DNA of 32,367 bases from a virus: positions 1 through 32,367 of the IMG/VR virus record IMGVR_UViG_3300035099_000321. One strand, written 5' to 3'. Shown here in pieces: positions 5,396 to 21,391 of the stretch. The first letter of the stretch is position 1; each line of letters opens with the position of its first letter. Both the position numbers and the translations under genes were made by a program. Below the pieces are notes generated by a model, which did not search any database, was not told where the DNA came from, and saw nothing but the letters and a program-made list of their open reading frames with translations.

Positions 5396-6796
5396 CTACA
5401 TAACGTCGGCTATTTTGCTCCCGAACCTAGACATCCAACGTATCGCCTGAGTAAGCGCATCCACTTGGTCGTCATGAGCGGCCTTGGGAAAGTGTTTTAG
5501 TTCTGTTAACAGGTCGCGCAGCCAAGGCGCATGTTTGGGCAAATGTACACGTCCAGCTTCGATACGACCGGCCACGGCGGCAGCACGCTGCACTTTATCG
5601 TCCTGCGGCTCTATTGGTATTAACGGCAAATTCGTGGAGTCGCGCAGTTCGTAAACTACATCCTTGCCGCTGGCCTTCGCTTCGACTAAAACGGCGTCTC
5701 CGTTCCATTTATTGTGGAGCTCAATCATTGCCTTTCGTAGTTTCGGAAATCGCATCTGGCCGCGCACCTGGTCTACAAGATAGTAGTCTTTCCCAGTGTC
5801 GCCCCAAACCTGCCCAACAGAAAAATCCGCGCCTCTTTTTTCTTCGAACGCCGTGTCCCATGATTCGACTATACGTACAAACACCGGAAGCTCGTCCAAC
5901 ATAAAATCGAATACAAAGGACGCCACGTCGAGCACGGCGGCGCCAGCTGGCTGAGGGTCTTGCTGGTAAATACAATTAAACGCCTCTACGCCCATGTCCC
6001 TCTCAATGTCGTGTAAATACGCGGCGCTGTAGCGCTCCGGCCAAAGCGCTTGCCCCGGTTCGCGTTTGTCATACGGTCGCGCATCGTCCGTCTGCAACGC
6101 CGGTAGTTTAATCAAGCACCACTTGTCTTCGCTCTCTCGGAGCAGCCATCCGACGAGGTCGTCATAATGCCAACGCGTCATGACAATAACAATAGCGCCG
6201 TCCGGCGATAGACGCGTAAGCGCTACCTCCCTGAACCAGTCTTTCAAATTCTCTCGCCACATGGCGCTATCAGCCTGCCTCCTGTCTTTTATCGGGTCGT
6301 CCACGTTGAAGACACGGGCTCCAAGCCCTGTTATCCCACCGCCTACACCGGCACACGCGAACGTGTTGCCGTTAGTTAGCGCCCAATCGTGCGCTGCCGC
6401 GCCGTACGCCTTGTCAACCGACGTACCGAAGACATAGCGATAGACCGGATGTGTCGTGATATTGCGCGCCGCCCTGCCGAACGAACGCGCTAGGCTAGCG
6501 TTATACGACGAGGAAATAATGGAGCGAGGGTCGCCGTTGAAATCACGGACGCCTAAGAACCACGGCGGGAAAACTCTGGAACAAAGCCACGATTTGCCGT
6601 GTCGAGGCGGGACGTTGATGATAAGGCGATTAACCCCTCCTGTCGCTACGTTTCGCAATTCATCGCCTATTAGCCAATGGAACCACGCGGGTTTGTACCT
6701 ATCACTCAACGCCGCAGCTAGGCGCACCGGATGACGGCGGATACGCTCTGCGTACACCATCTCCGGCGTAACACAATCAAGCGCTTCTTCCGGCAT
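5396..6796 (-). CDS. terL: Terminase large subunit
   Basis: This 466-aa packaging motor has an N-terminal ATPase with Walker A PPRHGKS (63-69), Walker B VFNVDDP (162-168) and a coupling-type segment MTRWHYDDLVGWL. A C-terminal RNase-H-like nuclease follows, with acidic residues in VESWDTAFEE and HDDQVDALTQA. The start at 6796 (MPEEALD) is preferred to an ATG at 6877 because the longer version would lie deep inside terS. The chosen start overlaps terS by 20 bases. Whether packaging is headful or cos-type cannot be read from the sequence. Confidence 0.95.
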   Translation of the reverse strand: MPEEALDCVTPEMVYAERIRRHPVRLAAALSDRYKPAWFHWLIGDELRNVATGGVNRLIINVPPRHGKSWLCSRVFPPWFLGVRDFNGDPRSIISSSYNASLARSFGRAARNITTHPVYRYVFGTSVDKAYGAAAHDWALTNGNTFACAGVGGGITGLGARVFNVDDPIKDRRQADSAMWRENLKDWFREVALTRLSPDGAIVIVMTRWHYDDLVGWLLRESEDKWCLIKLPALQTDDARPYDKREPGQALWPERYSAAYLHDIERDMGVEAFNCIYQQDPQPAGAAVLDVASFVFDFMLDELPVFVRIVESWDTAFEEKRGADFSVGQVWGDTGKDYYLVDQVRGQMRFPKLRKAMIELHNKWNGDAVLVEAKASGKDVVYELRDSTNLPLIPIEPQDDKVQRAAAVAGRIEAGRVHLPKHAPWLRDLLTELKHFPKAAHDDQVDALTQAIRWMSRFGSKIADVM

Positions 6797-7196
6797 CTTG
6801 CAGCACCTTTTGTAGCTGTTCTTCAGTGAGACCGCTAAGCGCAGTCGAGCCGTCAGCCGCGCCGCCGTTGTCATCATCCTGACGCCGCGGCCCGTACCGT
6901 CTAGGCATTAGTTTTTCGAGTATCCACGACGCGGCGCGCCAGTCCCGCTTAACAAGAGCAGCCCTGCTAATAACAGACAAATAGCGATTTTCGCGCACCG
7001 CCTCCGCCTCGGCTATTTTAGCAGCGAAAACCGAATCCGTGCGCAACCGGCTATAATACGTGGACGTATTGATTCCAGATAACACACACGCCGTCCTGAC
7101 GTCGAGTCCAAGCGCAATACGCCCAGTTAAATCTCTGATTAGCTGCGTGTCTTGACTCCTCGGAATGCGCATTCTGCCGTTTTTACGAACCGCCAT
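6777..7196 (-). CDS. terS: Terminase small subunit (probable)
   Basis: This 139-aa protein lies directly before terL. It has a helix-turn-helix-like region (TACVLSGINTSTYYSRLRTD), then a helical segment ending RDWRAASWILEKLMPRRYGP, a combination common in small terminase subunits that recognise the phage packaging site. The C terminus (GLTEEQLQKVLQDAG) is a short helix likely to contact TerL. The start at 7196 has AGGAG six bases upstream and downstream of the G-rich leader at 7247-7270. It is the first gene of the structural block. Confidence 0.85.
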   Translation of the reverse strand: MAVRKNGRMRIPRSQDTQLIRDLTGRIALGLDVRTACVLSGINTSTYYSRLRTDSVFAAKIAEAEAVRENRYLSVISRAALVKRDWRAASWILEKLMPRRYGPRRQDDDNGGAADGSTALSGLTEEQLQKVLQDAGRSA

Positions 7197-7246: not shown

Positions 7247-7270
7247 CCCCCGCCCCCGCACCCCCTCCCC
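7247..7270 (-). promoter_or_regulatory. Putative G-quadruplex element in the terS leader
   Basis: On the minus (mRNA-sense) strand four G-tracts follow each other as G4-A-G5-TGC-G5-C-G5, which fits the G-quadruplex consensus with 1-3-1 base loops. It is in the presumed 5' untranslated leader, about 50 bases before the terS start. The same tract and loop-length pattern recurs in the replication-operon leader at 20980-21002 with different loop bases. Folding is inferred from sequence only. Confidence 0.55.
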
Positions 7271-7376
7271 ATCCGGAAAAGGAGAATATGGGGTGTGAGA
7301 TATGAGATATGAGGACCTTAGGACCTCGGGACCTTAGGACCTTAGGTCCTTAGGTCCTTAGGGCCTTAGGACCTAA
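7260..7376. repeat. Operon-leader repeat, copy 1: conserved spacer plus 8 x 8-bp array
   Basis: Positions 7313-7376 are eight perfect-phase 8-bp units: GGACCTTA, GGACCTCG, GGACCTTA, GGACCTTA, GGTCCTTA, GGTCCTTA, GGGCCTTA, GGACCTAA. Before them is a spacer with CATCCGGAAAAGGAG and GGGGTGTGAGATATGAG, where ATATGAG is duplicated. The same module recurs at 20992-21077. The change from GGACC to GGTCC units makes the middle of this array foldable (GGACC...GGTCC). It lies in the gap upstream of terS. The rest of this gap (7197-7246 and 7377-7429) shows no gene or convincing promoter; the packaging site could also lie here. Confidence 0.85.
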
Positions 7377-7429: not shown

Positions 7430-8232
7430 TTATAATGTAATCATTTGAGCTAACCAGTATTTTATTCGAGCATTAGCGATTTCAATCCACCGAGCCTCGC
7501 GCTCAATGCCAATATATTCGAAACCCTCGATACCTGCGGCATCGCATTAGAGAAATTGGCTTGACCGTCGGATGCAGGTTTGCGACGTCGGCGGCGCCCG
7601 GTTTGAACTTGGAGGGATGGTTCGGGAAATCACCCAGCGTGCGGCGTTGCCCTGTTTCGCGCAATCCCGCCTCACGGAGTCCCGCCTCGCGTTCACTTCG
7701 ACACGCTTTTGCGCAATAAAAAAATCGCGACACGCCGCCGGTATCGCCTGTTCCGGTTTCGCGTTCACCGATTTGTTCATCGAGCATTGCCGCCACGGTT
7801 TCATCGAATATTACGTTTGCAGGCCAGTTTGAGCGCCGTGCCCCAGCCGTTCCAGAGCGTGGCGGCTCCCAATTTTTTGTCGATTGCTTTCGAAACGTCG
7901 AGGTTTTTCGGGAATCCTGTTCCATACAGCCACAACAGCATATCTCGAATTTCAAATCCAGCGTCTCGAATTCGCCCCATTATAAAATCCACTGTTCGCG
8001 TGCTGCTGAATGCTAATAAATGCGCGCCCGGTTTGAGGACTCGCAGGCATTCGCGCCATAGCTCGACCGGCGGGGAATCGGAGTCCCATGTTTGCTCCAT
8101 GAATTGAATTCCGTACGGTGGGTCTGTAACTATCGCGTCAATCGAGGCGTCTGGCAATTTGCGGAGTTGTTCGAGCGCGTCTCCGTGAATTATTCTATTA
8201 GTCAACATTTGCGCGACTGGTATAGTTTCCAT
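7430..8232 (-). pseudogene. DNA methyltransferase (beta-class, DPPY type), broken by two frame-shifting deletions
   Basis: Three pieces in three different frames make one methyltransferase. Piece 1 (8232 to about 7829) has IIHGDALEQLRKLPDASIDA and motif IV TDPPYG, ending GWGTALK. Piece 2 (about 7829 to 7542) has WPANVIFDE, GVSRFFYCAKA and HPTVKPISLMR. Piece 3 (about 7540 to 7430) has AAGIEGFEYIGIEREARWIEIANARI, ending at TAA. Intact relatives have roughly 50 residues between pieces 1 and 2, and the DPF-GSGT SAM-binding motif between pieces 2 and 3; both are missing here. The product should therefore be inactive. Start 8232 is uncertain; 8208 is possible. The 5' end overlaps the ERCC4 gene. 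Confidence 0.85.
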
Positions 8233-8678
8233 GCCTTGTGTAACAACATGAATGTAAAAATCTCCGCCAGTGCTCGGTTTCCGGCGAAAACGAACGGCAC
8301 GTTGAATAGCGTTTGCCATGCTGCTATTGTTCCTAACAGAGAGTGGGCATTTAGTCGGCTAAATTTCGGCCTCTTGATAAGCACGTCATGCATCGTCGCT
8401 TCTATCACAACGGCGCGTGTTTGCATTCGCGCGAGTTTGGCCATTTCATCCATGAAGCGCTCTCGGTTTTTAGTGGAAAACGTGGAATAGAGGTCGCACA
8501 AGGACTTGCGCTCAACGGCCGCGTTGCCGGTGTTACCGGCGTCTTCGAGGAATGAATAATCACCGACGTCCAAACGGCTTCTCAACGTGCTAAATTTCGG
8601 CGGTTTCGAGTAAAAACTGAGCACCGCTTGGAACGTAAAGGCGTTTTTTTCTCGGTCGTCGACTACGAGCGTTAGCAT
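8202..8678 (-). CDS. ERCC4-domain nuclease (XPF/Mus81-type)
   Basis: This 158-aa single-domain protein shows the ERCC4 active-site pattern: VVDDREKNAF at the N terminus, LDVGDYSF near residue 40, and AVERKSLCDLY near 57-64 (the GDx(n)ERKx3D signature). Family members cut branched or flapped DNA structures and, in phages, may help replication, recombination or packaging. The start at 8678 is the first codon consistent with the domain; its ribosome site is weak. An upstream GTG at 8741 would run through the operator-like palindrome and is unlikely. It is the first gene of the leftward arm. Confidence 0.85.
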   Translation of the reverse strand: MLTLVVDDREKNAFTFQAVLSFYSKPPKFSTLRSRLDVGDYSFLEDAGNTGNAAVERKSLCDLYSTFSTKNRERFMDEMAKLARMQTRAVVIEATMHDVLIKRPKFSRLNAHSLLGTIAAWQTLFNVPFVFAGNRALAEIFTFMLLHKAWKLYQSRKC

Positions 8679-8740: not shown

Positions 8741-8779
8741 CAAGAGGAAACCCGCGTCCTTAGCGGCCGAGAGGCCTCT

Positions 8780-8796
8780 TTGGCACGTTTCTTGCG
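8780..8796 (+). promoter_or_regulatory. Sigma-54-like promoter P1 (rightward)
   Basis: TTGGCACGTTTCTTGCG matches the RpoN consensus (TGGCACG-N4-TTGC), with the invariant GG (8782-8783) and GC (8794-8795) exactly ten bases apart. A start near 8807 would give a leader of about 195 bases before the first rightward gene. GGCCGAGAGGCC (8765-8776) is an adjacent inverted repeat. Confidence 0.6.
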
Positions 8797-8854
8797 CCCA
8801 ATTGGCCGTTTTGGCCGTTGCACGGACGCCACAGTCGAGTAACACGCTTTTTGT

Positions 8855-8870: not shown

Positions 8871-8931
8871 CATGCCAGCTCTGCCGCGCCGGACGCGGGT
8901 TTTGTAAAAGACGCGCCTTTTCGCGCTCTCT

Positions 8932-8948
8932 TTGGCACGGGACTTGCT
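8932..8948 (+). promoter_or_regulatory. Sigma-54-like promoter P2 (rightward)
   Basis: TTGGCACGGGACTTGCT matches the RpoN consensus at every conserved base, with GG (8934-8935) and GC (8946-8947) ten bases apart. A start near 8959 would be 43 bases before the first rightward gene, an ordinary leader length. It shares CTCTTTGGCACG and CTTGC with P1, suggesting a duplicated promoter. No AAA+ activator is encoded by the phage, so a host activator would be needed. Confidence 0.7.
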
Positions 8949-9001
8949 ACCTATTTTTTATAAAATCTCGTGCGGAGCACGAACAAATCAGAAAGGAGAG
9001 A

Positions 9002-9373
9002 ATGAAGATGGCTACAAACAAAAAACAGACAACGAGAGAATACAACAGGTCTCCAAAACTAATCAAGGAGCGCCGCAAGGCATTAGGGGCTTGCTACACG
9101 TGTTGCGATAACCGCGACAGCGTAGATAATTTCGTTCTACATATGAACGAGGAGGCGGTGTTACGTCTCTATTATTATCTAACACACAAAACTACTGTTT
9201 CCGATTATGACGAAGAAACAAAGTGGTTGACAGACCAGATGCAGATTCACGCCAAAATAACAGCGCGCGAAATGGCGCAGTTCAGAGCCGACCTGTGCTT
9301 TACCATCGCTCAAGATACATCTTCACAACAGGGCAAACTCGAGAACTGGGAACCGGCTCCGTGGGACAGGTAA
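9002..9373 (+). CDS. Small hypothetical protein, first gene of the rightward operon
   Basis: This 123-aa protein has AAAGGAGAG just before ATG 9002; the in-frame ATG at 9008 (MATNKK) is slightly better spaced. It has a basic N terminus (KLIKERRKALG), a Cys cluster ACYTCCDN around residue 31 that could bind metal but is not a complete known finger, and an acidic/aromatic C terminus ending LENWEPAPWDR. I do not recognise the family. Its place right after the sigma-54-like promoters suggests an early or host-takeover function. Confidence 0.75.
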   Translation: MKMATNKKQTTREYNRSPKLIKERRKALGACYTCCDNRDSVDNFVLHMNEEAVLRLYYYLTHKTTVSDYDEETKWLTDQMQIHAKITAREMAQFRADLCFTIAQDTSSQQGKLENWEPAPWDR

Positions 9374-9388
9374 AAGAGGAGGACTACC

Positions 9389-9703
9389 ATGGCAATCAAA
9401 CGAAAAGATGACGTCGCGCGCTGGATATCCGAAAATATCAAAAGCCTGCCGCAGTTGATAAACGTCGTGAAAGCGGCTAACAAAATTACCGAGAGCAAGC
9501 AAACTCCGGCGCGATTCGAGAAAACGATGCGCCAGATTGAAGCGACCGCTAACAGACCGAGTTACGGCCTCGCTCGTATGACGCTCGGCCTCATACTCCG
9601 TCGCCTGTATAGACTGTCGAAAGAAAAAACATTCGCGTCGTTTATCAGCCGTTTAGAAATCGGAGAGGAAGATGGAAACAGGGATTCCGGAACGGATAGT
9701 TGA
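9389..9703 (+). CDS. Small hypothetical helical protein
   Basis: This 104-aa protein has a good AGAGGAGG ribosome site. It is basic, Arg/Lys-rich and almost entirely helical: ARWISENIKSLPQLINVVKAA, then ARFEKTMRQIEATA, then LARMTLGLILRRLYRLSKE. It has no Cys cluster, transmembrane segment or catalytic motif, and I do not recognise the family. Charge and helicity would suit a nucleic-acid-binding or regulatory role. Its 3' end overlaps the sigma-like gene by 32 bases. Confidence 0.7.
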   Translation: MAIKRKDDVARWISENIKSLPQLINVVKAANKITESKQTPARFEKTMRQIEATANRPSYGLARMTLGLILRRLYRLSKEKTFASFISRLEIGEEDGNRDSGTDS

Positions 9704-10271
9704 GCAGCTGATGCCTGGTATTATTGGCCAATCGTTTAAGCTGGCCTTCGACGAGCAGCAGGCCGAGGAATTCGTAGCAGAGGCGCTGCTAGCTATTAGT
9801 AAGGCATACACAAGATACTCACACAAGAGCGACGACGAATTGGTAAAGTTGCTTGGCCGGACGGCCACGAACCGTATGCTTGATTGCAAGCGGCATGCGG
9901 CTTTCGTTTCAAAACAACGTTTCATCGAAATCGATGAAAACATGGCTTACATGCCGCATACCTACGACGCGCTCCTAGACGTATGCGGCACGGTGAGCAA
10001 GATGCTCAACGCGTTGCCGTATGCAGCGCGTGTTGTCTTTTTAGAACGGTTGGAGCCAAGCCCCAAAACGCAATTGCTGTTAAACCGGCTTAAAGCGGAG
10101 AAAGAATGCCAACGCCAGCGCGGATTTTTCACAATGGGCAAGGTAACAATGAGCAACGGCGTTCTAGTCAAGGCGACCGGTCTCACCGCACGTCAAGTGG
10201 CTCAAGCTAACAAGGAAATAAGAGAAACCTACTCACGTTTGGTAAATGGAGGTAATAACGATGGACGTTAA
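9672..10271 (+). CDS. Sigma-70-family-like transcription factor
   Basis: This 199-aa protein resembles an ECF-type sigma factor. Residues 31-50 (AEEFVAEALLAISKAYTRYS) and the stretch LLGRTATNRMLDCKRHA match the region 2 pattern (EDLVQEVFLKLYRA...YRIARNRLIDYLRR). LNALPYAARVVFLERLE resembles the start of region 4, and GLTARQVAQANKEIRETYSRL resembles its DNA-binding helices, with an unusual insertion of about 35 residues between them. It may redirect host RNA polymerase to middle or late promoters. An alternative is a transcription regulator derived from a sigma factor that no longer acts as one. It is translationally overlapped on both sides. Confidence 0.6.
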   Translation: METGIPERIVEQLMPGIIGQSFKLAFDEQQAEEFVAEALLAISKAYTRYSHKSDDELVKLLGRTATNRMLDCKRHAAFVSKQRFIEIDENMAYMPHTYDALLDVCGTVSKMLNALPYAARVVFLERLEPSPKTQLLLNRLKAEKECQRQRGFFTMGKVTMSNGVLVKATGLTARQVAQANKEIRETYSRLVNGGNNDGR

Positions 10272-10518
10272 ATATATTGGCAATGATGATTGCAGGCGCA
10301 ACGAGGGCGGATTCGGCACACGGATATTCGAGGTTCAACGCAGTCCCAACAGCGAAAAACACATCGTGCGGATTTCAACAACGCTCGACGAGACGCCCCA
10401 AGGCGAGCGTTGCGACTGCCCGGGCTACAGATATCGCAGGAGGTGCAGTCATATTGATGCGGCGTTAAAATTCTGGTACAGCGCCGTCGACGCGGACGAT
10501 GATAACGACGACAACTAA
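10261..10518 (+). CDS. Small SWIM-type zinc-finger protein
   Basis: This 85-aa protein starts at ATG 10261 with GGAGG eight bases upstream; an earlier in-frame ATG at 10246 lacks that site. Cys51-x-Cys53 and Cys62-x-His64 (CDCPGYRYRRRCSHIDAAL) form a SWIM zinc finger, CxCxnCxH, a fold that binds DNA or proteins. The C terminus is a run of Asp/Asn (DADDDNDDN). It overlaps the sigma-like gene by 11 bases, so the two are co-translated and may act together. Confidence 0.75.
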   Translation: MDVKYIGNDDCRRNEGGFGTRIFEVQRSPNSEKHIVRISTTLDETPQGERCDCPGYRYRRRCSHIDAALKFWYSAVDADDDNDDN

Positions 10519-10530
10519 TCGCTAACCGCT

Positions 10531-10562
10531 ACCCTCCGACCAGCTCACATCCGGCGGAGGGT
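10531..10562 (+). terminator. Stem-loop after the SWIM gene, possible weak terminator
   Basis: ACCCTCCG (10531-10538) pairs perfectly with CGGAGGGT (10555-10562) around a 16-base loop and is followed by TTTC. The T-run is only three bases, so termination would be partial. It would cap the four-gene rightward transcript and reduce read-through into the last small gene. Confidence 0.45.
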
Positions 10563-10566
10563 TTCG

Positions 10567-10581
10567 GGCGGGTTGCCCGCC
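10567..10581 (+). other. Compact GC hairpin before the last rightward gene
   Basis: GGCGGG (10567-10572) pairs with CCCGCC (10576-10581) over a TTG loop. No T-run follows. Together with the larger stem-loop just upstream it makes a double hairpin in the leader of the 88-aa gene, which may stabilise or process the RNA. Confidence 0.4.
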
Positions 10582-10608
10582 TCAAAATGAAAAATGGAGG
10601 TAACGAAA

Positions 10609-10875
10609 ATGGAAAACAAAAAAATTAACTGGAAAAGTTTTACGTTAGCGGAATATAGCGATTCGGCCAATAAAATGATACCGTGGGAGTATTGCGACTG
10701 TCCCGACCGCTACGTGCAGTGCATGCGCGAATTAAAACGAACAGACTCAATGACGAGGGTATTTTTTTGGCCGGACGAGAACCGGGGCGAATCCGAGCAG
10801 GATGACGATTGGTCGGGTTTTGGCCCGCACAGCGCGAACGAAATCGATTGGTCAGATTTTCCGTACGGAGAATAA
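10609..10875 (+). CDS. Small acidic hypothetical protein, overlapping the primase gene end-on
   Basis: This 88-aa protein has an AATGGAGGTAA ribosome site nearly identical to that of the SWIM gene, which supports it being real although 166 bases run antisense to the primase 3' end. It has a CDCPDRYVQC segment (a partial echo of the SWIM protein's CDCP) and a strongly acidic, Trp-rich C terminus (DDDWSGFGP, EIDWSDFPYGE). I do not recognise the family. Acidic Trp-rich small proteins are common among host-takeover or DNA-mimic candidates, but nothing here shows that directly. Confidence 0.65.
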   Translation: MENKKINWKSFTLAEYSDSANKMIPWEYCDCPDRYVQCMRELKRTDSMTRVFFWPDENRGESEQDDDWSGFGPHSANEIDWSDFPYGE

Positions 10876-11759: not shown

Positions 11760-13050
11760 CTCGTATTTGTGATACAGACCAGTCCGCCGTAACGGTTCCC
11801 ACGTCTCCGTCCATACCATCTCTGTACTTAACAATGCAAATGCGCATCGACTTATTGCGCTTTTCTCGAACAGACTGATTCAGTGTTACTACTAAATCAG
11901 CCGTCGCTATTTTGTTATAATCCTCGCGCACGTCCCATTTTTCTACAACCGTGTCGTCCTTGGATGACGGCGTGTTTGTTCTTTTTGCCGCCTCTCTGTT
12001 AGATTGAGTAGCCGACCAGACAGCAACGTCATGCTCGACGCCGATTGCACGCAGTCCGGAAAAAATAGACGATAACTCATGCCTGTACTCTTTGTATCTG
12101 GACATAGACGACATAAGGTCGCCATAATCTACTATAACGAGGTCTGGAATAAACCCATCGCGGTCGCGAAGCAAGCGCAAGTGCGCTGATAGCTTGTTCA
12201 CGTCCAGCGCGCCAGCTGAATACTGAAAAATGAAGAAACGCCCATCCTTCACGGCGCTTATGGCGTCTTGTATCCGTTGTATCGCCTCTCTTGGACGGCA
12301 CATTAGTTCGTGTTTTGTCATGCCAGAAAAACTCATGTCGAGTCGCCTCGATAACACGCGTTCTGATACTTCTAGTGTATAATAAGCGACCTTGTGTCCA
12401 CCAAGGAGCACGGCGTTTTTCCCGATGTTTAACAGAAAGTGTGTCTTCCCGACGCCGGTATCAGCCATGACAAAAGCGAATTCGCCGCGGTCTATTCCAC
12501 CATTCGTACGCTTGTCAATAAAAGAAATACCGGTAGGCACGCGACGTTCATTGCTCGCGCTGTTTCTGTAGCCAAGAACACGCTCGTTGATGTTATCAAA
12601 ATACTCCGTCTGTTTAGGACGCCCGTCGCCGACATGCGCAGCTCGAAGAAACAACTGCTCCGCTGCCTCGAATTCGCCTCTTTTCACCATTTCGCTCACA
12701 CTAAGTAATGAATCAAGCATAGCGCGCTTTTTGGCAAACGGGATAATACGCTCTTTTAAATAAGAGAATTCACGCGGCGGCGCTGAGTACAATTTACGAG
12801 CGTAGCCATCGTACTCGTCCGAGAGTTTGTTATCGGCCAACACCTGTAAAAACGCGTCTAGGGACAGGCAATCGTGATGCTTGTCAAAATACGATAACAG
12901 CAGTCCGGCCAGCTTCGCCTCGTCTGGGTTCTGAAAGAACGATGAATCCAAGCAATCGCGACACTCGTTTAGAAACCGGCTATCATGCGCAATTGCACGG
13001 AGCAAAAGCGTCTGAAATTCCGGTGTTAATTCGTTACCAATCAAGCTCAT
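11743..13050 (-). CDS. Replicative DNA helicase, DnaB-like
   Basis: This 435-aa protein has a DnaB-type N-terminal helical domain (1-110), a linker, and a RecA-fold ATPase. Linker and core begin VPTGISFIDKRTNGGIDRGE. Walker A is ADTGVGKT (196-203), Walker B is LVIVDYGDL, and a sensor-like VAVWSATQSNREA follows. It should form the hexamer that unwinds the fork with the adjacent primase. It overlaps the fusion nucleotide enzyme upstream (17 bases) and the primase downstream (17 bases). The C terminus is normal for phage DnaB proteins. Confidence 0.92.
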   Translation of the reverse strand: MSLIGNELTPEFQTLLLRAIAHDSRFLNECRDCLDSSFFQNPDEAKLAGLLLSYFDKHHDCLSLDAFLQVLADNKLSDEYDGYARKLYSAPPREFSYLKERIIPFAKKRAMLDSLLSVSEMVKRGEFEAAEQLFLRAAHVGDGRPKQTEYFDNINERVLGYRNSASNERRVPTGISFIDKRTNGGIDRGEFAFVMADTGVGKTHFLLNIGKNAVLLGGHKVAYYTLEVSERVLSRRLDMSFSGMTKHELMCRPREAIQRIQDAISAVKDGRFFIFQYSAGALDVNKLSAHLRLLRDRDGFIPDLVIVDYGDLMSSMSRYKEYRHELSSIFSGLRAIGVEHDVAVWSATQSNREAAKRTNTPSSKDDTVVEKWDVREDYNKIATADLVVTLNQSVREKRNKSMRICIVKYRDGMDGDVGTVTADWSVSQIRDADSH

Positions 13051-14587
13051 GGCGCCATTTTTCCACTACACGTAGTAGCACCGTTGCCAATTCCCTGCTC
13101 AAAACCCGCGGGTCTTCGAAACGCTGTATAGAATACACAGCAGAAGCGTGTTCCAGTGCCCAAACCGAGGGCTTGTCATCGGCGTAATGTACGACTGTAA
13201 CAGGCACGCGCGCTTGACGCGCTGCTTGAAATATCTCCGCGTGCGCGCCAGCGGAAAAAACGGGCAAGAAACTGAACACCATGTCGGACGCAAATATGTC
13301 CATTATGTCCTTTTGGATGTGCTTCTTCATGTTTGGATACGTGCCGTTCGGTGCACGCGGCCCGACGTCCTCTAATCGCCGAACTAGCGGATTGAGCAGC
13401 ATTATACCAGACAACATCGGCTCTTGTGCGAGGTTCGAACACCACGCGGATGCTATGTTATCCTCGAAGGAGCGCTGAATCGGGCCGGCCAAGTACACGA
13501 CCGGACGTACACAATGTCTTCGACGCAACATCTTATTAAAGAGTACGCCAGTTGCGCCCCTTTTCTGGTACGAGCCGCGCTTCTGGCGTTCGATGTTCTT
13601 ATTTCGTTTTTCCTCGTATTGTTCCCATAGAGTGTCCGCGTTCATACCAGCGGCCGACACGGCGGAGAGGAAAAAATGCAGTATATCCACCAATTCTTCT
13701 CTTACCTTTTCCATGTCCACCAAATCGCACGTCCACCACTCGTCCGGAAGTTCAGCCAGCGCCTCGTCTACCTCTTTGTGTAAAGCTCGAAGAAAGCGCC
13801 GTAGCCAAACTACGTGTGTGTCGTATGGACGCGCTACAGCGCCGTTCTTGTTTGCTTCCGCTACAAGCTGTTCCATCGTCAAAAGTCCCGGCTGTTTTGT
13901 CATAATCATGTCGGAGACTTCCGTGTGTAGTTGTATCAGACGTTTTAGAGTCCTAGATGCGCTTACATGATCGAAGCGGTCTGGAATTGTATCTAGAAAA
14001 CTTACACACTGCGATTCCGTGTTGTCTATGGAAAAAAACTCACAGCCCGTGTTAGCAATGGCCTCTATCGTAGTTAAGAGCTTTAACGGCTCCTGTTCAT
14101 TACGTTTCTCATCTAGCAGTCTTTTAGTTGTATCATCCTGCGCGCGCGCTGTTAGTCGTGTAATTCGTACATCGTCGGCGCACCGCACATAAACAAAAAC
14201 CGGAACGACACCGGCGCGTGCGCATGTTTCTGTACTCCATCGCACCTGGTCTACAGAACGAGGAAAACCGTCTACGAATAAAGCGGTAAATCCTCCTGCC
14301 TCATTTACAGCGTCCGCTACGATGTTTCTTACCATCTCCTCTGTTTCATACGGTGTTACCGAGTCGAAGCACTGCGCAAAGAATTGTTCACCTAACCGCG
14401 CGCGACACTGCACACCTGGAAAAACAGACATGTAATTAAAAAATCGCGCCGCCTTGGCTAGCGTAGTTTTGCCCGCGCCGGTGCGCCCTAACAAAAAGAA
14501 CACGGTCGGCTCCGGCCTATTGCAAATGCGACTTATAACAGCTTCCCAGGAAGAAAAATCTCCGTTGGAAATCTCACGGTTTTCCAT
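13034..14587 (-). CDS. Three-domain nucleotide enzyme: adenylate-kinase-like, MazG/dUTPase-like, deoxyribosyltransferase-like
   Basis: This 517-aa protein joins three enzyme folds. Residues 1-205 resemble a short adenylate kinase: P-loop GRTGAGKT (34-41), DGFPRS (106-111), and ARAQDDTTKRLLD in place of the LID and RxDD region. Residues 258-345 resemble the all-alpha NTP pyrophosphatases (MazG or dimeric dUTPase): HKEVDEA with Glu272/Glu275, REELVDILHFF with Glu298/Asp301, and EKRNKNIERQKRGSY. Residues 361-475 resemble nucleoside 2-deoxyribosyltransferases: VVYLAGPIQ, then SDMVFSFLPVFSAGAHAEIF. ATG 14587 has AGGAG eight bases upstream, inside the end of purZ. The Z-DNA context suggests dGTP to dGMP (middle) and dZMP kinase (first) roles, both inferred. 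Confidence 0.82.
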   Translation of the reverse strand: MENREISNGDFSSWEAVISRICNRPEPTVFFLLGRTGAGKTTLAKAARFFNYMSVFPGVQCRARLGEQFFAQCFDSVTPYETEEMVRNIVADAVNEAGGFTALFVDGFPRSVDQVRWSTETCARAGVVPVFVYVRCADDVRITRLTARAQDDTTKRLLDEKRNEQEPLKLLTTIEAIANTGCEFFSIDNTESQCVSFLDTIPDRFDHVSASRTLKRLIQLHTEVSDMIMTKQPGLLTMEQLVAEANKNGAVARPYDTHVVWLRRFLRALHKEVDEALAELPDEWWTCDLVDMEKVREELVDILHFFLSAVSAAGMNADTLWEQYEEKRNKNIERQKRGSYQKRGATGVLFNKMLRRRHCVRPVVYLAGPIQRSFEDNIASAWCSNLAQEPMLSGIMLLNPLVRRLEDVGPRAPNGTYPNMKKHIQKDIMDIFASDMVFSFLPVFSAGAHAEIFQAARQARVPVTVVHYADDKPSVWALEHASAVYSIQRFEDPRVLSRELATVLLRVVEKWRHELDW

Positions 14588-15723
14588 ATGTCATTCTCCT
14601 CAAGATTCACCATGCTCTTTAGCGTCGGACCGGTGCCTAGCAAACGAATTTTAACGGAGCTAAGCGGCTCGGACGCGCTTTGCCACAACATCGTGGAAAT
14701 CCTATCAACGAGCTGCTCAAGCCACGTTGTAACCGTTGCGGGGAGATTGTAAACATCATTGCAACCGCTAGCAGTGAAATCTATATAATCCACGTGATTA
14801 ATGCACAGATACGTCGGAGCGCAGTATCGAAGAAAGCGCAGAAATTGTGCGTCTGACCACGTGAAGACGCGGCGCGGCTTGTTTGTTACAGTAGTTTTCT
14901 CTACCAGAGGAGCAATGTCTTTTGGCCTAGCAGACGCGTTTGCTACGAGATTCCACGTTATCTCCTGCTGGTCGGGATAACAAGGGCCAGACCAGCCGTA
15001 CCTCGGCTCGTTGAACAAACCCTCGCCGCTCAAATTGCCTACACGTATTGGATACGTACGTAGAACACCGAAGACGCTACCAACGAGACAGGGCGGGCAG
15101 CCGAAGTCGGCTGCTATTGAAGACGTGGTAATATCACGAGACGTAGTAAACGGATACGAATGGCCATGATTCAATGACAAGTCAAAGCCTTGTGGACTCT
15201 CAGCCAAAACAGCGCCACCGCGTCTCAACACGTTATGAATCTCTCCGCACACGTCGCCGATAAAAGGCGAAAGCTCTGCTACATCCCTAGCTAAGCGGGC
15301 TTTGCGCAATACCTTTCTGGCCAAAGCGTATCCACCGCCCTGTTTGGTAGAACTTATGGCGTCCAAGCCCTGTTCGTCTTCGTGTCGTTTATCATCATCT
15401 TCGAGTATCGTGGCCTTCTCGTCTATAATCAAGCGCTTCTGCACGCCGTGTGTTTCGATTTCCTCTAACACGCGCTTCACGTCTAATACCGCCGTAGGGC
15501 CAATACCAAGCAACACGTCGTCGTTCAAGACGGATGACGGGAGCTGCTTTAACACGAACTTGTTACCGTCCGGATCGTAGTGTGTATGGCCAGCATTAGG
15601 AGCGAAATTGCATACCGCCATCGCCGGTGAATAATGATGGGCAAGGTAGGACGCCACCTTGCCCTTTCCCGTCGAACCCCATTGGCCGTCAATTATGATG
15701 TTTAGCTTCCCTCTCTGCAACAT
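14533..15723 (-). CDS. purZ: PurZ-like deoxy-2-aminoadenylosuccinate synthetase
   Basis: This 396-aa protein is an adenylosuccinate synthetase homologue with IIIDGQWGSTGKGKVASYLA (10-29) and APNAGHT (41-47). In PurA the loop is GDEGKGK and its Asp is catalytic; here it is GSTGKGK, with Ser17. As I recall, the Ser is typical of phage PurZ enzymes, which condense dGMP with aspartate so that host PurB can produce dZMP. AESPQGFDLSLNHGHSYPFTTSRD and the TYPIRVGN segment also match that family. It lies between SSB and the fusion enzyme in an overlapping operon. An ordinary PurA, or a PurZ0-like archaeal type, is less likely given the loop. Confidence 0.88.
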   Translation of the reverse strand: MLQRGKLNIIIDGQWGSTGKGKVASYLAHHYSPAMAVCNFAPNAGHTHYDPDGNKFVLKQLPSSVLNDDVLLGIGPTAVLDVKRVLEEIETHGVQKRLIIDEKATILEDDDKRHEDEQGLDAISSTKQGGGYALARKVLRKARLARDVAELSPFIGDVCGEIHNVLRRGGAVLAESPQGFDLSLNHGHSYPFTTSRDITTSSIAADFGCPPCLVGSVFGVLRTYPIRVGNLSGEGLFNEPRYGWSGPCYPDQQEITWNLVANASARPKDIAPLVEKTTVTNKPRRVFTWSDAQFLRFLRYCAPTYLCINHVDYIDFTASGCNDVYNLPATVTTWLEQLVDRISTMLWQSASEPLSSVKIRLLGTGPTLKSMVNLEENDIWKTVRFPTEIFLPGKLL

Positions 15724-16874: not shown

Positions 16875-19268
16875 TCACCATGTATCACTTATAGTAACGT
16901 CTACCCGAAGCTCTACGACGTACACCGGATAACGCTGCGGCAGTTTTTTTGTCATTGTGTCAACGAGCAACTCCGATACTCTTTTTACCTCGCTTGGATG
17001 CGCATCAACTATCAATGAGTCGTGCACTTGCGCAATCAAACAGCTCTTATAACCTCTGCGCACGAGCTCAGAGTCGACCTTTGTCATTGCCCAAGCCGTC
17101 ATATCCGCTGCAAACGACTGAATAGGGAAATTGCTAGCCTGTAACACCGCGGCCGTGTCTCCGCTTTTTGCCGCTGGTAAATGGCGCACTCGGCCTAGAC
17201 GGCTTCGTACAAAACCGTATTCTACAGCAAAATCGCGTTGCGCTTCTATATAACGAGACACCATTGGATAGGTTTTTCTATGACGCGCCAGTAGCGTTTT
17301 TGCGTACTTGATGTCGTCAGGTTTTTTTAAATGCCACGCCAGCTCTTTCGCTCCAATACCATACACAACGCCGAAACTAACTCTTTTCGCTTGACAACGC
17401 TGCTCGTCCGTGTAATTTTGACCGAAAATCTCCGCCGCTGTAACGCCGTGTACGTCGCCACCAGCTTTGAACACCTCTAACAACGCCGGTTCGAGGGACT
17501 CATTAGCAACTAGCATTAATTCGAGTTGCATATAATCCGCCGTTACAATGCTCCCGCCTTTGAACCTAGATACCAGCGCCTTTCTTATGTCGCTTGTTCG
17601 TTTCAACGCTTGCGCATTAAAATCGGTACAGTTCAGCCTTCCGGTAACTACATACCCTTGATGCCAATTACAACTAGTCGTACCGTCGTTTCGCAACTTT
17701 CTCATAATCTGGTCTATTACATCGAGGTCGTGCTGCATTGAACGCACGGCGGATATTTGTTTTAAAACCGGGTGTTTATCCTCTAGCGCTTCTATCACCT
17801 CTCGCCTCGTGCTAGGCGCGCCGTTTTTCGTGGTACGAAGCACGTCCAATTTCAAGACGTCGTAAAGCAGTGTACTAGTCTGCTTCGAGGACTGGAAATT
17901 GAAGACACCGTCCCGAACGCCGCATAACAGCAATGCTTCTTGTATCACGGGCTCTTTGTTCAAAGACTCCGTCGCCTCTTCGCAGCGCCGCTGAATATCG
18001 TGTCGCGTTTCGGCCATGCGCGCCCTATCTACCTTTATCCCGCGTTCCTCTATCCTCGCGAGCGTCCGCACGGCCGGTAGTGTTATTTCGTTATACAAAT
18101 CCAAGAGCTTTGAGTCTTCCTCCAACGTAGGACGCAGTGTATTTCGTATAAGACCGGTAGTAATAACGTCTCCGCTGCAATACGAGAAAAGCTCTTTATC
18201 TGGGGCGTCCGACGTTTTATTTCCGTCCGCGTCGCGCCACTGCTTCATCCAGTTGTCATACCCGCCGTACGGCGTGTACCTATGCGCCAATATCTCCAAG
18301 TTATGCAAACTCTCCTCATCTAATAGATGATGAAGCTGGTACGTGTCATCCACCAAGTTGGCTGGCTCAACCCCGAAATGAATGCGACTCCAAGCTGCCT
18401 CGAATTTAGCGTTGTGTGCTACCTTTGGAACCGGAGACCGCAGCCAGTCGGAAAACGCCCTTCTCACATCGTCTCTCACACCACCGGCAAAACTAATAAT
18501 AACAGCATCTAGCGAACCGGCCTCACACAAACCGACACACACCGGAACACCAAGCGTCGGCTCTAATTCGGTAGTTTCGAAATCAAATACCATAGGACGG
18601 CAACGCGCCGACGAGTGCTGCAGCAAAAACGCGCGTATCTCTCCACTAGTGTACAAGACCTTATAAGACATTGGCGTTACGGCGGATGCGGCCTTTTTGC
18701 CGCCTATAAACGACACCACCGATTGAAGATGCGCCGCAAAAACCCTACCATTGCTCTTTTGATGAAGAACAGCCGACGGATGGAGCATCGGTATGACCGG
18801 AATTTTCCGTAGCTTGGGCACGTGCTCTTGCATGCTGTACTCTCTGAGTACAATTCCGCCCCATTGCATGACGCTCTTTGCTCCCACGATTACGCTTGTG
18901 GCTGTTTTTCCTAGCGTAACTAACAACGCGGACGGTGGAAAGGCAAGGAGCTCTTGCACGACATTGGGAAAGCACGCTTCCACGTGATTTTTTCTGGGCT
19001 TGCGTATCTCGCCGTCGTCATCGTGAGGAAAACACCGTACAACGTTGGTAAGGCGAATCGCGTATCGGTCTAATCCGGTTTCTCTGAGTTTTTGTGTTAG
19101 CAACCTGCCAGCTGGGCCGACAAAACACTCTCCCCTTTTATCTTCTTCTGGGCCAGGAGCTTCCCCAATAAAAACTATTTCGGGCTCGTTACTTCCCCGC
19201 CCGTCTATACAAAAGGTACAGCATTTTTTGTACAGACCGCACTTCACGCAGTTTTTCGGGATAGCCAT
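16875..19268 (-). CDS. Family A DNA polymerase with N-terminal uracil-DNA glycosylase and 3'-5' exonuclease
   Basis: This 797-aa fusion begins with a family-4 UDG (1-190): Cys7, Cys10, Cys79 and Cys99 (4Fe-4S pattern), GEAPGPEED (35-43) and MLHPSAV (161-167). A DEDDy exonuclease follows: DFETT (229-233), HNAKFE (285-290) and YCSGD (363-367). The PolA core has GRLNCTDFNAQ, motif A DYMQLEL (Asp578), motif B RCQAKRVSFGVVYG (Lys628, Tyr636) and motif C QVHDSLIVD (His749, Asp750), where the usual HDE is HDS. It replicates the phage genome; in a Z-genome phage it would be the DpoZ-like polymerase. The exonuclease motif II Glu290, where Asp is usual, is worth note. The start at 19268 has a GAGGAAG site. 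Confidence 0.92.
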   Translation of the reverse strand: MAIPKNCVKCGLYKKCCTFCIDGRGSNEPEIVFIGEAPGPEEDKRGECFVGPAGRLLTQKLRETGLDRYAIRLTNVVRCFPHDDDGEIRKPRKNHVEACFPNVVQELLAFPPSALLVTLGKTATSVIVGAKSVMQWGGIVLREYSMQEHVPKLRKIPVIPMLHPSAVLHQKSNGRVFAAHLQSVVSFIGGKKAASAVTPMSYKVLYTSGEIRAFLLQHSSARCRPMVFDFETTELEPTLGVPVCVGLCEAGSLDAVIISFAGGVRDDVRRAFSDWLRSPVPKVAHNAKFEAAWSRIHFGVEPANLVDDTYQLHHLLDEESLHNLEILAHRYTPYGGYDNWMKQWRDADGNKTSDAPDKELFSYCSGDVITTGLIRNTLRPTLEEDSKLLDLYNEITLPAVRTLARIEERGIKVDRARMAETRHDIQRRCEEATESLNKEPVIQEALLLCGVRDGVFNFQSSKQTSTLLYDVLKLDVLRTTKNGAPSTRREVIEALEDKHPVLKQISAVRSMQHDLDVIDQIMRKLRNDGTTSCNWHQGYVVTGRLNCTDFNAQALKRTSDIRKALVSRFKGGSIVTADYMQLELMLVANESLEPALLEVFKAGGDVHGVTAAEIFGQNYTDEQRCQAKRVSFGVVYGIGAKELAWHLKKPDDIKYAKTLLARHRKTYPMVSRYIEAQRDFAVEYGFVRSRLGRVRHLPAAKSGDTAAVLQASNFPIQSFAADMTAWAMTKVDSELVRRGYKSCLIAQVHDSLIVDAHPSEVKRVSELLVDTMTKKLPQRYPVYVVELRVDVTISDTW

Positions 19269-19764
19269 TTTTTATTCTTCCTCTGACGGTACAAAGAATC
19301 TTGCTACCACGTATCCTGCTTATCCTGCATTTTGCAGCAGCGTCGTTGACGGGCTTCCGACTTCCTCGTAATACATAAATAACGTACCAATACAAGAAGC
19401 GAAGGTCGGCGCGCTTCATGCCAGCTGTAGCGCTGTAAAGCGACGTGAGTCGCTCCGCGTTCACTGATTCATCGTCAACGTCTTCCTCAACCCAGCTAAA
19501 GCTAGCCGTGCTTCTATACGAACGCTCCAATTGCCTGCGTCTTCTCTCCCTCTTAATCCACCGAAACGCCCGCCGCATCATTGACACAAAGATATAACCG
19601 TCGCTACCGCGTAAATGAAACTCTCGCTCCACGCCGAATAACAATAAATCAGAGAACAACTCATCCGCTAATTGCTTCGGCGCCGTCAAATTAGCAACAG
19701 TCCGCGCAATCGAAACTAATGTCGCTTCTCTCGTTTGCCTTTGCACATCGGCCAGAATCCGCAC
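19189..19764 (-). CDS. Hypothetical basic protein, possibly sigma-factor-like
   Basis: This protein is up to 191 aa; the start is uncertain, with GTG at 19764 or 19746 and no strong ribosome site. PKQLADELFSDLLLFGVERE and GYIFVSMMRRAFRWIKRERR resemble a sigma region 2 layout, and the C-terminal NDAAAKCRISRIRGSKILC resembles a helix-turn-helix. The resemblance is weak. It overlaps the polymerase by 80 bases and the Cas4-like gene by 49, so its place in this tight operon is secure even if the function is not. It could equally be an unrelated DNA-binding protein. Confidence 0.55.
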   Translation of the reverse strand: MRILADVQRQTREATLVSIARTVANLTAPKQLADELFSDLLLFGVEREFHLRGSDGYIFVSMMRRAFRWIKRERRRRQLERSYRSTASFSWVEEDVDDESVNAERLTSLYSATAGMKRADLRFLYWYVIYVLRGSRKPVNDAAAKCRISRIRGSKILCTVRGRIKNGYPEKLREVRSVQKMLYLLYRRAGK

Positions 19765-20486
19765 CTCTCAGGACTGCAAGTGTACACGATAGAAGCATCG
19801 CACATAGGAAAAGCGCCTCTGCTAATAGCATCCGCTACACTAGTTACTACCTGCTCTACAATAAAGAGCCTAGAAGCGTCAACTTTGCTAGGCACCCTGC
19901 CCACGGTTCGAGCAGACGAAGACGCGGATTTTAACAAAAAAACGAACGATACTTTTTCCTTTTTTTCGGCCAACGCGTACATGCCAAGCTGTAAATCAAC
20001 ATCGGCATCGCGCTGCGTTTTCGGTCTGCCTACTACCTTGTAATCAATAACAGAGTCTTCTTCGACGAGGTCTGGAAACATCTGCACCGGCACGCCGTTT
20101 ATATCAACACAAACCTCTTGCTCCGCCTTTACCGGCTTTATTTCCGGCGCCAGAAGTGTCATGTAGTTCTTGATGATATTCTCGCCGCGCGAAAGCACGG
20201 ACTTCTCATCCTCTCCTTCCCAATCGCCTATTTCCCGTTTGTTTTCAGAGAAAAGGTCTTTAAACACAGTCAACATGAACGAGGTCTCTAAATCCTGCTG
20301 CTTTTCTATCTTGTGTTGATTATTGATTTTAAGCACCTCGTGATGCGTTCCGCCTTCTACCAGCGCTAAAGGCGGCGCGACGCGGATATTCTCTACATAC
20401 GCGTAGTAGTAAGCGCGCGGACACCGTAAATACGAGGACACTTGCGTAGGAGACAAATGTCCTTTCGGTAACTCATAAATAGCCAT
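19716..20486 (-). CDS. Cas4-like PD-(D/E)XK nuclease with iron-sulphur cluster
   Basis: This 256-aa protein has LSPTQVSSYLRCPRAYYY (Cys22), GTHHEVL (His49), FPDL (Asp139), VIDYKV (Asp148, Lys150) and QLGMY (QxxxY). Three C-terminal cysteines, Cys237, Cys242 and Cys248 (CSPERCGFWPMC), complete a 4Fe-4S cluster with Cys22, as in Cas4/AddB-type RecB-family exonucleases. It likely processes DNA ends in phage recombination or replication. Similar nucleases are common in phage replication operons, and no CRISPR array is nearby. The start at 20486 has an AAGGGG site. Confidence 0.88.
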   Translation of the reverse strand: MAIYELPKGHLSPTQVSSYLRCPRAYYYAYVENIRVAPPLALVEGGTHHEVLKINNQHKIEKQQDLETSFMLTVFKDLFSENKREIGDWEGEDEKSVLSRGENIIKNYMTLLAPEIKPVKAEQEVCVDINGVPVQMFPDLVEEDSVIDYKVVGRPKTQRDADVDLQLGMYALAEKKEKVSFVFLLKSASSSARTVGRVPSKVDASRLFIVEQVVTSVADAISRGAFPMCDASIVYTCSPERCGFWPMCKGKREKRH

Positions 20487-20973
20487 TTCTTTCCCCTTTC
20501 TGCAATAGCCGTTGCGCCTCTCTGGCTTCGGCCTCGGATAATGAACGAAGGCATTCTTCGCTTACCAAACCGCCAGTTACTAATAACAAACGAGCATCTC
20601 TGTTACCGGCCTGTCGAAGTAACGCTTTTTGCTCCTCGACAGTCAAACCGGCATCGCATACCGGAACCCTGCTTTCATATCTCAAAAAGCGCTCTTCCGC
20701 TGCCTTGGTATGCAACGCCGCTAATGGCGGATACGGCATGTTGAACAGCTTGTAACACACATCCTCCGGTAAACACAAAAACTGCACGAGCAGGTACCGC
20801 TTGATTTCCACGATGTCCCTGCTGTTTAGAAAAGAGCATAGCGGCAACATCGCCTTGCGCTGAATTTTGCCGCAAATCCACTTTCTCAAACCTAGACGAG
20901 ACGCGACGAGAAGCTCGTACAACGCCACCGCGTCAAACAAACGATGCTCTATCAATGAGCTGAGCTGTAGCAT
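20473..20973 (-). CDS. Hypothetical protein under the G-rich leader, first gene of the replication operon
   Basis: This 166-aa protein is helical: LFDAVALYELLVASRLGLRKW, then DIVEIKRYLLVQFLCLPEDVCYKLF. Its C-terminal half looks like a separate charged module (GLTVEEQKALLRQAGNRD, LSEAEAREAQRLLQK). I do not recognise the family and see no catalytic motif or HD phosphohydrolase signature. Its start codon follows the G-tract element at 20980-21002 by six bases, and the Shine-Dalgarno GGAGG lies within that element, so its translation may be controlled. Confidence 0.7.
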   Translation of the reverse strand: MLQLSSLIEHRLFDAVALYELLVASRLGLRKWICGKIQRKAMLPLCSFLNSRDIVEIKRYLLVQFLCLPEDVCYKLFNMPYPPLAALHTKAAEERFLRYESRVPVCDAGLTVEEQKALLRQAGNRDARLLLVTGGLVSEECLRSLSEAEAREAQRLLQKGERNGYL

Positions 20974-20979
20974 CCGCTA

Positions 20980-21002
20980 CCCCTCCCCCATACCCCCTCC
21001 CC
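20980..21002 (-). promoter_or_regulatory. Putative G-quadruplex containing the ribosome site of the replication operon
   Basis: The mRNA-sense strand reads G4-A-G5-TAT-G5-A-G4, then TAGCGG and the ATG at 20973. Four G-tracts with 1-3-1 base loops satisfy the quadruplex rule, and the same pattern is in the terS leader (7247-7270). The only plausible Shine-Dalgarno (GGAGG) is formed by the third and fourth tracts, so folding would hide it from the ribosome. No T-run or alternative ribosome site is visible. Actual folding needs experimental proof. Confidence 0.6.
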
Positions 21003-21077
21003 ATCCGGAAAAGGAGGATACGGGGTGTGAGATATGAGGACCTTAGGACCTCGGGACCTTAGGACCTTAGGCCCTAA
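20992..21077. repeat. Operon-leader repeat, copy 2: conserved spacer plus 5 x 8-bp array
   Basis: Positions 21038-21077 are five in-phase 8-bp units: GGACCTTA, GGACCTCG, GGACCTTA, GGACCTTA, GGCCCTAA. The spacer (CATCCGGAAAAGGAG, GGGGTGTGAGATATGAG) matches copy 1 at 7260-7376 with few changes. Copy 1 has three more units. The copy lies between the 97-aa gene and the first replication gene and is the only non-coding module shared by the two operon starts. The remaining 20 bases to 21097 show nothing clear. Confidence 0.85.
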
Positions 21078-21097: not shown

Positions 21098-21391
21098 TTA
21101 TGTAACATCTAATACGAAATCGCATTGCTCTACTAGAATTGACTCGTTTATCAGATTAGCCCAATACGAAGACAACCGGCCCACTTTGGCATTTGAAAGA
21201 GCGCCTATTAGTGATATTTCCATTAAGCCCGCCTGTTTCATTTCGTCTGTAACTCGAATAACCTCGAATTTACACGCAGCCGCGTGTAAGAAGACAAATT
21301 TTCCGCGTCGCTTCGGGTCGGCGTGTATTATAACCTTATCCGGTCGCGCGCATAATACACGGTCTCCGACTTTAAAACTACTGGCTGTCAT
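21098..21391 (-). CDS. Small hypothetical protein, beta-rich
   Basis: This 97-aa protein starts at 21391 with AAGGG eight bases upstream. It opens FKVGDRVLCARPDKVI, an SH3/KOW-like beta-barrel start, with FVFLHAAACKFEVIRVTD and a C-terminal LVEQCDFVLDVT. No known family is certain. It overlaps the zinc-ribbon gene by 14 bases and is the last gene before the leader repeat, so its transcript may end there. A role in regulation or host interaction is only a guess. Confidence 0.65.
   Translation of the reverse strand: MTASSFKVGDRVLCARPDKVIIHADPKRRGKFVFLHAAACKFEVIRVTDEMKQAGLMEISLIGALSNAKVGRLSSYWANLINESILVEQCDFVLDVT

Follow-up and report, generated by a model that had tools for sequence, protein, structure and literature searches.

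What an octamer array and its leader are doing at two distant places in one viral genome is the question raised by this locus. The window, the whole stretch of DNA analyzed here, is a virus record of 32,367 bases, which we take to represent a closed circle of 32,309 bases because the ends of the record have 58 identical bases in common and one open reading frame (ORF) crosses the join. On the minus strand, an ERCC4-type nuclease gene (8741) and a DNA methylase gene (8319-7430, frameshifted) are followed by those for terS (7196), TerL, the portal, and the capsid, after which minus-strand genes, including those for tail proteins and a lysin, cross the record ends and continue down to 21098. The structural operon of the closed map accordingly runs on the minus strand from terS at 7196 through the record ends to 21098 (~18 kb). 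The replication block (~10 kb, minus strand, 20973 to 10710) encodes an exonuclease, a family A DNA polymerase, an SSB-like protein, PurZ, a kinase/pyrophosphohydrolase fusion, a DnaB-type helicase, and a primase, and the sole plus-strand block lies at 9002-10875. An earlier note on this DNA placed the arrays at both major operon starts, which holds once the map is closed by the shared ends and the ORF through the join; its description of the two blocks as holding nearly all minus-strand genes also stands, except for the ERCC4-type nuclease and methylase genes (8741-7430), which lie 5′ of the terS copy. The features concerned, in the order of transcription at each site, are as follows.

7430..8319, minus strand: DNA adenine methylase gene 5′ of copy 1; its stop codon lies ~54 nt before array 1
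7312..7375, minus strand: octamer array 1, eight units of AGGNCCTN (plus-strand letters; TAAGGNCC-type on the minus strand), 5′ of terS
7248..7306, minus strand: shared leader copy 1, CTCATATCTCACACCCC-ATAT-TCTCCTTTTCCGGATGGGGAGGGGG..., 92% identical to copy 2
7247..7270, minus strand: G-quadruplex motif copy 1, carried by the terS coding strand (GGGGAGGGGGTGCGGGGGCGGGGG); G4Hunter score, -3.0
6777..7196, minus strand: terS, which opens the packaging/structural operon (terminase small subunit; phrog_4102, 2.9e-15)
21098..21391, minus strand: last gene 5′ of copy 2; its stop codon lies ~21 nt before array 2
21037..21076, minus strand: octamer array 2, five units, the first four the same as those of array 1
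20980..21038, minus strand: shared leader copy 2, 59 nt, 92% identical to copy 1
20980..21002, minus strand: G-quadruplex motif copy 2, GGGGAGGGGGTATGGGGGAGGGG; G4Hunter score, -2.9
20473..20973, minus strand: gene that opens the replication block, encoding 166 amino acids and without a family match

The methylase gene is spread over three frames, and its two frameshifts represent either decay or assembly errors.

The two elements are near-identical, lie in the same orientation, and each span ~100 to 130 bases, with an octamer array followed by a leader that ends in a G-quadruplex motif; the similarity between the copies stops close to the fourth G tract, at most a few bases away. Two-unit AGGNCCTNAGGNCCT matches with up to two mismatches number 11 in the window, all of them inside the two arrays, against 0.5 expected from shuffles, and a 21-nt leader core, CTCCTTTTCCGGATGGGGAGG, is exact in both leaders and absent elsewhere in the window. 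These motif and core searches bear out the claim of the earlier note that the array and its conserved spacer occur in two places only. Its arrays of eight and five in-phase octamers are likewise present, with the phase moved by one base (7312-7375 and 21037-21076).

Array 1 reads AGGACCTT AGGACCTC GGGACCTT AGGACCTT AGGTCCTT AGGTCCTT AGGGCCTT AGGACCTA, and array 2 reads AGGACCTT AGGACCTC GGGACCTT AGGACCTT and then AGGCCCTA. The four identical opening units include an unusual TCGGG junction in both arrays, and the longer array differs from the shorter one by three extra units ahead of its last unit. In addition, a CTCATAT heptamer occurs twice at the terS copy (the second at 7307-7313) and once at the other copy, so that, as had been reported, both this heptamer (there given as ATATGAG) and the number of units differ between copies. 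Because the first four units are identical while the unit number and the CTCATAT count differ, we take it that one copy derives from the other, or both from a common source, with units later gained or lost. The related statement that the arrays are changing draws on the comparison of two copies within a single genome. The unit AGGNCCTN combines the odd dyads AGGNCCT and CCTNAGG, which overlap, and it reads near-identically on both strands. Across the 13 units, positions 2, 3, 5, 6, and 7 are invariant, and the variation falls at the dyad centers (positions 4 and 8), apart from one change at position 1. This pattern, which like that of the leader loops described below is statistically weak owing to the few substitutions, is suggestive of a dyad-binding protein or a hairpin.

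The most unusual part of the element is the G-quadruplex motif adjoining the array, rather than the array itself. Each leader ends with a four-tetrad motif on the coding strand, with runs of 4 to 5 G and loops of 1-3-1 in both copies, and thus has the canonical form of four runs of at least 3 G separated by short loops on one strand. With runs of at least 3 G and loops of up to 12, these two are the only such motifs in the genome; shuffled genomes have 0.0 motifs with runs of at least 4 G and 0.25 with runs of at least 3 G. The next-ranked site in the genome by G4Hunter scores -1.4. ViennaRNA with G-quadruplex terms predicts -40.8 and -42.1 kcal/mol for the two copies versus -27.5 and -31.5 kcal/mol for the hairpins, the quadruplex being favored by 13.3 (copy 1) and 10.6 (copy 2) kcal/mol. 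The three differences between the copies in this region (GC to AT and C to A) all fall in loops and leave every G tract intact. The earlier note had overlooked these motifs, which are the strongest feature of the element.

The distance from the quadruplex to the start codon is 50 nt for terS and 6 nt for the gene at 20973, whose Shine-Dalgarno sequence may be provided by the last G tract of copy 2. We considered masking of the ribosome site by the quadruplex as a function common to both copies and rejected it, because terS has its own Shine-Dalgarno sequence, AGGAG, well downstream of the quadruplex, and only at the replication copy would one lie within a G tract. A shared function more likely involves the DNA itself or its transcription.

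Copy 1 is directly 5′ of terS, and copy 2 lies exactly at the border that separates the last structural gene from the first gene for replication; the minus-strand run has about 13 nonoverlapping gene junctions, and the two that are occupied are the methylase/terS and late/replication borders. By our own estimate, with the borders judged by hand, random placement would yield this pair 1 time in 78. The element takes up nearly all of the 124-nt interval at copy 2, which means that a promoter must lie within the element or in the gene preceding it. Neither copy has a promoter-like or terminator-like site that stands out. One alternative suggested by the proximity of upstream stop codons (array 2 starts ~21 nt past one, and array 1 starts ~54 nt past that of the methylase) is that the element is a boundary that ends upstream transcription and insulates the next operon by means of the hairpin and quadruplex, with or without Rho. 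A 41-nt G-free, C-rich stretch in copy 1 would be in keeping with this proposal. However, the intrinsic terminator pattern, a G+C-rich hairpin directly ahead of a run of U, is seen at neither element, and we rejected the stretch as a Rho loading site, since a G interrupts it in copy 2; G-free runs of this length are not rare in shuffles. We regard such a boundary or terminator as quite unlikely.

Another possibility for the two copies is a replication origin or packaging site, with an iteron-like array and priming through a quadruplex or R-loop, or with a TerS binding site next to terS. One copy indeed adjoins terS and the other adjoins the replication genes, and R-loops are formed by G-rich transcripts (PMC12137161). 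Nevertheless, a packaging site would not call for another copy ahead of the replication operon, at a distance of 13.7 kb; no AT-rich unwinding region is seen around either copy, and the cumulative GC skew has no turning point at either of them. We consider a role in replication initiation or packaging very improbable.

Elements of the put, nut, and SAS types were first noticed as shared leaders at phage operon starts, and put-type RNA suppresses termination via the zinc-binding domain of the RNA polymerase β′ subunit. A comparable cis-acting RNA could operate here if the hairpin of the nascent array, together with the structure or quadruplex of the leader, modified RNA polymerase for read-through of terminators. 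In phage HK022, the two early promoters are followed by two similar ~70-nt RNAs, putL and putR, each with two stem-loops (PMC9378689). They are the nearest phage precedent for twin leaders, as there too two similar elements with predicted RNA structure are found, one per operon start; put has neither a tandem array nor a G-quadruplex. The length of the two operons would suit an antiterminator, and both regions fold better than dinucleotide shuffles (z values of -3.2 and -3.1), as do the arrays alone (-4.8 and -3.2). Against this, the array forms a hairpin on either strand, and when the center letters of array 1 were permuted, the real order ranked only 17 (plus strand) and 19 (minus strand) of 168 for folding, with 67 to 78% of random-center arrays folding at least as well. 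As the center letters are not optimized for folding, the hairpin appears to follow from the unit itself, with no further selection seen. Compensatory changes, which we sought as proof of RNA hairpins, are seen in neither array nor leader, and an Rfam search returned no family match. An RNA acting in the manner of put is hence unlikely, albeit with some chance of being correct. The proposal of a shared regulatory leader made in the earlier note fits the position, the orientation, and the pattern of differences. RNA folding, a multimeric protein, or antitermination, the mechanisms it named, may each be involved, but the permutation of center letters did not specifically favor a role of the array as an RNA hairpin.

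The remaining alternative is that of a neutral or host-type repeat, i.e., a simple array with a G-rich tail that was copied within the genome and is tolerated between operons. Three tandem copies of AGGNCCTN are found in 6 other viral contigs, and two control octamers matched to it in composition are found in 10 and 7 contigs; with scrambled controls equally common, we rejected the idea of the octamer being a motif shared across phages. Several unrelated viral contigs (L017, L018, L019, L020, L021, and L022) have long AGGNCCTN-type arrays, some of them beside a strong hairpin. A neutral origin would agree with the occurrence of octamer arrays in gene-poor intervals of unrelated phage contigs and with the equal frequency of control octamers. 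Such a repeat is harder to reconcile with exactly two copies in one orientation at two module borders and with the conservation of G tracts and dyad arms while loops and centers vary. Moreover, viral contigs contain no exact copy of the leader core, and searches of phage and plasmid records likewise returned nothing; its single match in the genome collection, inside an apparent methyltransferase gene of a Thermoplasmata MAG, looks like chance. We therefore consider a neutral repeat rather unlikely.

Taking these findings together, we tentatively propose that the elements are a duplicated promoter-proximal control module of the structural and replication operons, combining a protein-bound dyad array with a transcription-dependent G-quadruplex, although we would stop short of calling this reading probable. 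In transcription order, the module would comprise an array of 5 to 8 unspaced octamers, the conserved spacer, and the four-tetrad motif. The array, with its AGGNCCT and CCTNAGG dyads, would serve as an operator array, most likely bound cooperatively by a dimeric DNA-binding protein, and transcription would start near the element. The quadruplex motif is on the nontemplate strand, just 5′ of the first gene, so that on transcription through the leader, the G-rich RNA or the displaced strand might fold in the cell. The folded quadruplex could then act, in either direction, through R-loop-assisted reinitiation or altered elongation, and both operons would thereby answer one common signal. In a T7 polymerase system, R-loop formation followed by that of a G-quadruplex has been reported to raise transcription (PMC12137161). 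A narrower form of this proposal, in which the dyad octamer array controls the folding of the quadruplex on the nontemplate strand or in the RNA and so provides a common switch for the two operons, is doubtful but deserves mention. No ribbon-helix-helix protein was found among the small ORFs scanned, most of which have no assignable family.

Besides put, several known systems offer partial parallels to the elements. Phage T7 has short heptamer tandem arrays (CCTAAAG) near its terminal repeats, in two places of the genome; these flank the genome ends, whereas the arrays here are 13.7 kb apart at operon starts. The heptad arrays of the omega protein are situated in promoter regions, and the protein doubles as a repressor. 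For omega (ParB) of pSM19035, at least four contiguous heptads are required for full partition activity (PMC9499535). With its unspaced short repeats in multicopy arrays, this system is the nearest precedent for arrays bound by a multimer; it differs in its 7-bp unit, sequence, mixed orientations, and partition role and in having no G-quadruplex. In cluster K mycobacteriophages, the SAS motif is repeated just 5′ of start codons, with about half of the sites carrying an inverted-repeat extension (ESAS) (PMC3203893). Like the present element, it is a repeated start-site element whose role is not established, but it occurs in many copies at single genes rather than in two at operon starts and has neither an octamer array nor a G-quadruplex.

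A TerL search recovered 11 loci, the best of them 46 to 50% identical, and the array is absent from all; nor was a G-quadruplex motif found in the stretches of the TerL relatives (L003-L013). The earlier note had suggested looking for the array in related genomes and would have taken its absence with an unchanged operon layout as refutation; such an absence with a similar layout is seen only at 46 to 50% TerL identity, and these relatives are too distant to decide the matter. No close relative was found in the searched collections, and none by a DNA polymerase search. One TerL relative (L005) has four copies of GTTAAAATAAGTGCACTTTT, a 20-bp dyad-containing site, at 5438-5704, two per direction; they sit before terS between divergent gene blocks and nowhere else on the contig. 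Because different repeats thus occupy the same place, the comparison suggests that the pre-terS interval may be a control region in this group. Repeated DNA resembling protein sites before terS is not unique to this phage.

Other features of the genome are also of note. Two sigma-54-type promoter matches, TTGGCACG-N4-TTGC, lie on the plus strand at 8776-8803 and 8928-8955, with one and zero mismatches to TTGGCACGNNNNTTGCT, respectively, and the plus-strand block at 9002 begins ~55 bases after the second; in shuffles, 0.13 such sites occur at one mismatch and none at zero. Control of a phage gene block by sigma-54 would be out of the ordinary. Within that block, 9672-10271 (plus strand) encodes a 199-amino-acid protein with weak but repeated sigma-70/ECF matches (Pfam, 0.0038; NCBIfam, 0.0012), which may be a sigma factor of the phage itself; no phage relative of it was found. 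A 191-amino-acid basic protein (19189-19764, minus strand) resembles, by eye, a second diverged sigma factor and has no family match. The replication block includes a PurZ-like synthetase (14533-15723, minus strand; phrog_1211, 1.2e-60; NF038379, 1e-66 but under the cutoff), a kinase-MazG/dUTPase-like fusion (13034-14587) whose C-terminal part resembles deoxyribosyltransferases by eye, and a UDG-fused family A polymerase (16875-19268). From its gene content, the phage is a candidate for a 2-aminoadenine (Z) genome. With PurZ present, adenine in its DNA may be replaced by 2-aminoadenine, and such a replacement would influence the reading of the array by any protein.

In the open papers searched, we found no description of an array paired with a G-quadruplex at phage operon starts. 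The element joins a binding array of the multimer type to a very strong G-quadruplex motif and, if functional, would offer a compact natural system for testing the control of bacterial transcription by promoter-adjacent G-quadruplexes.
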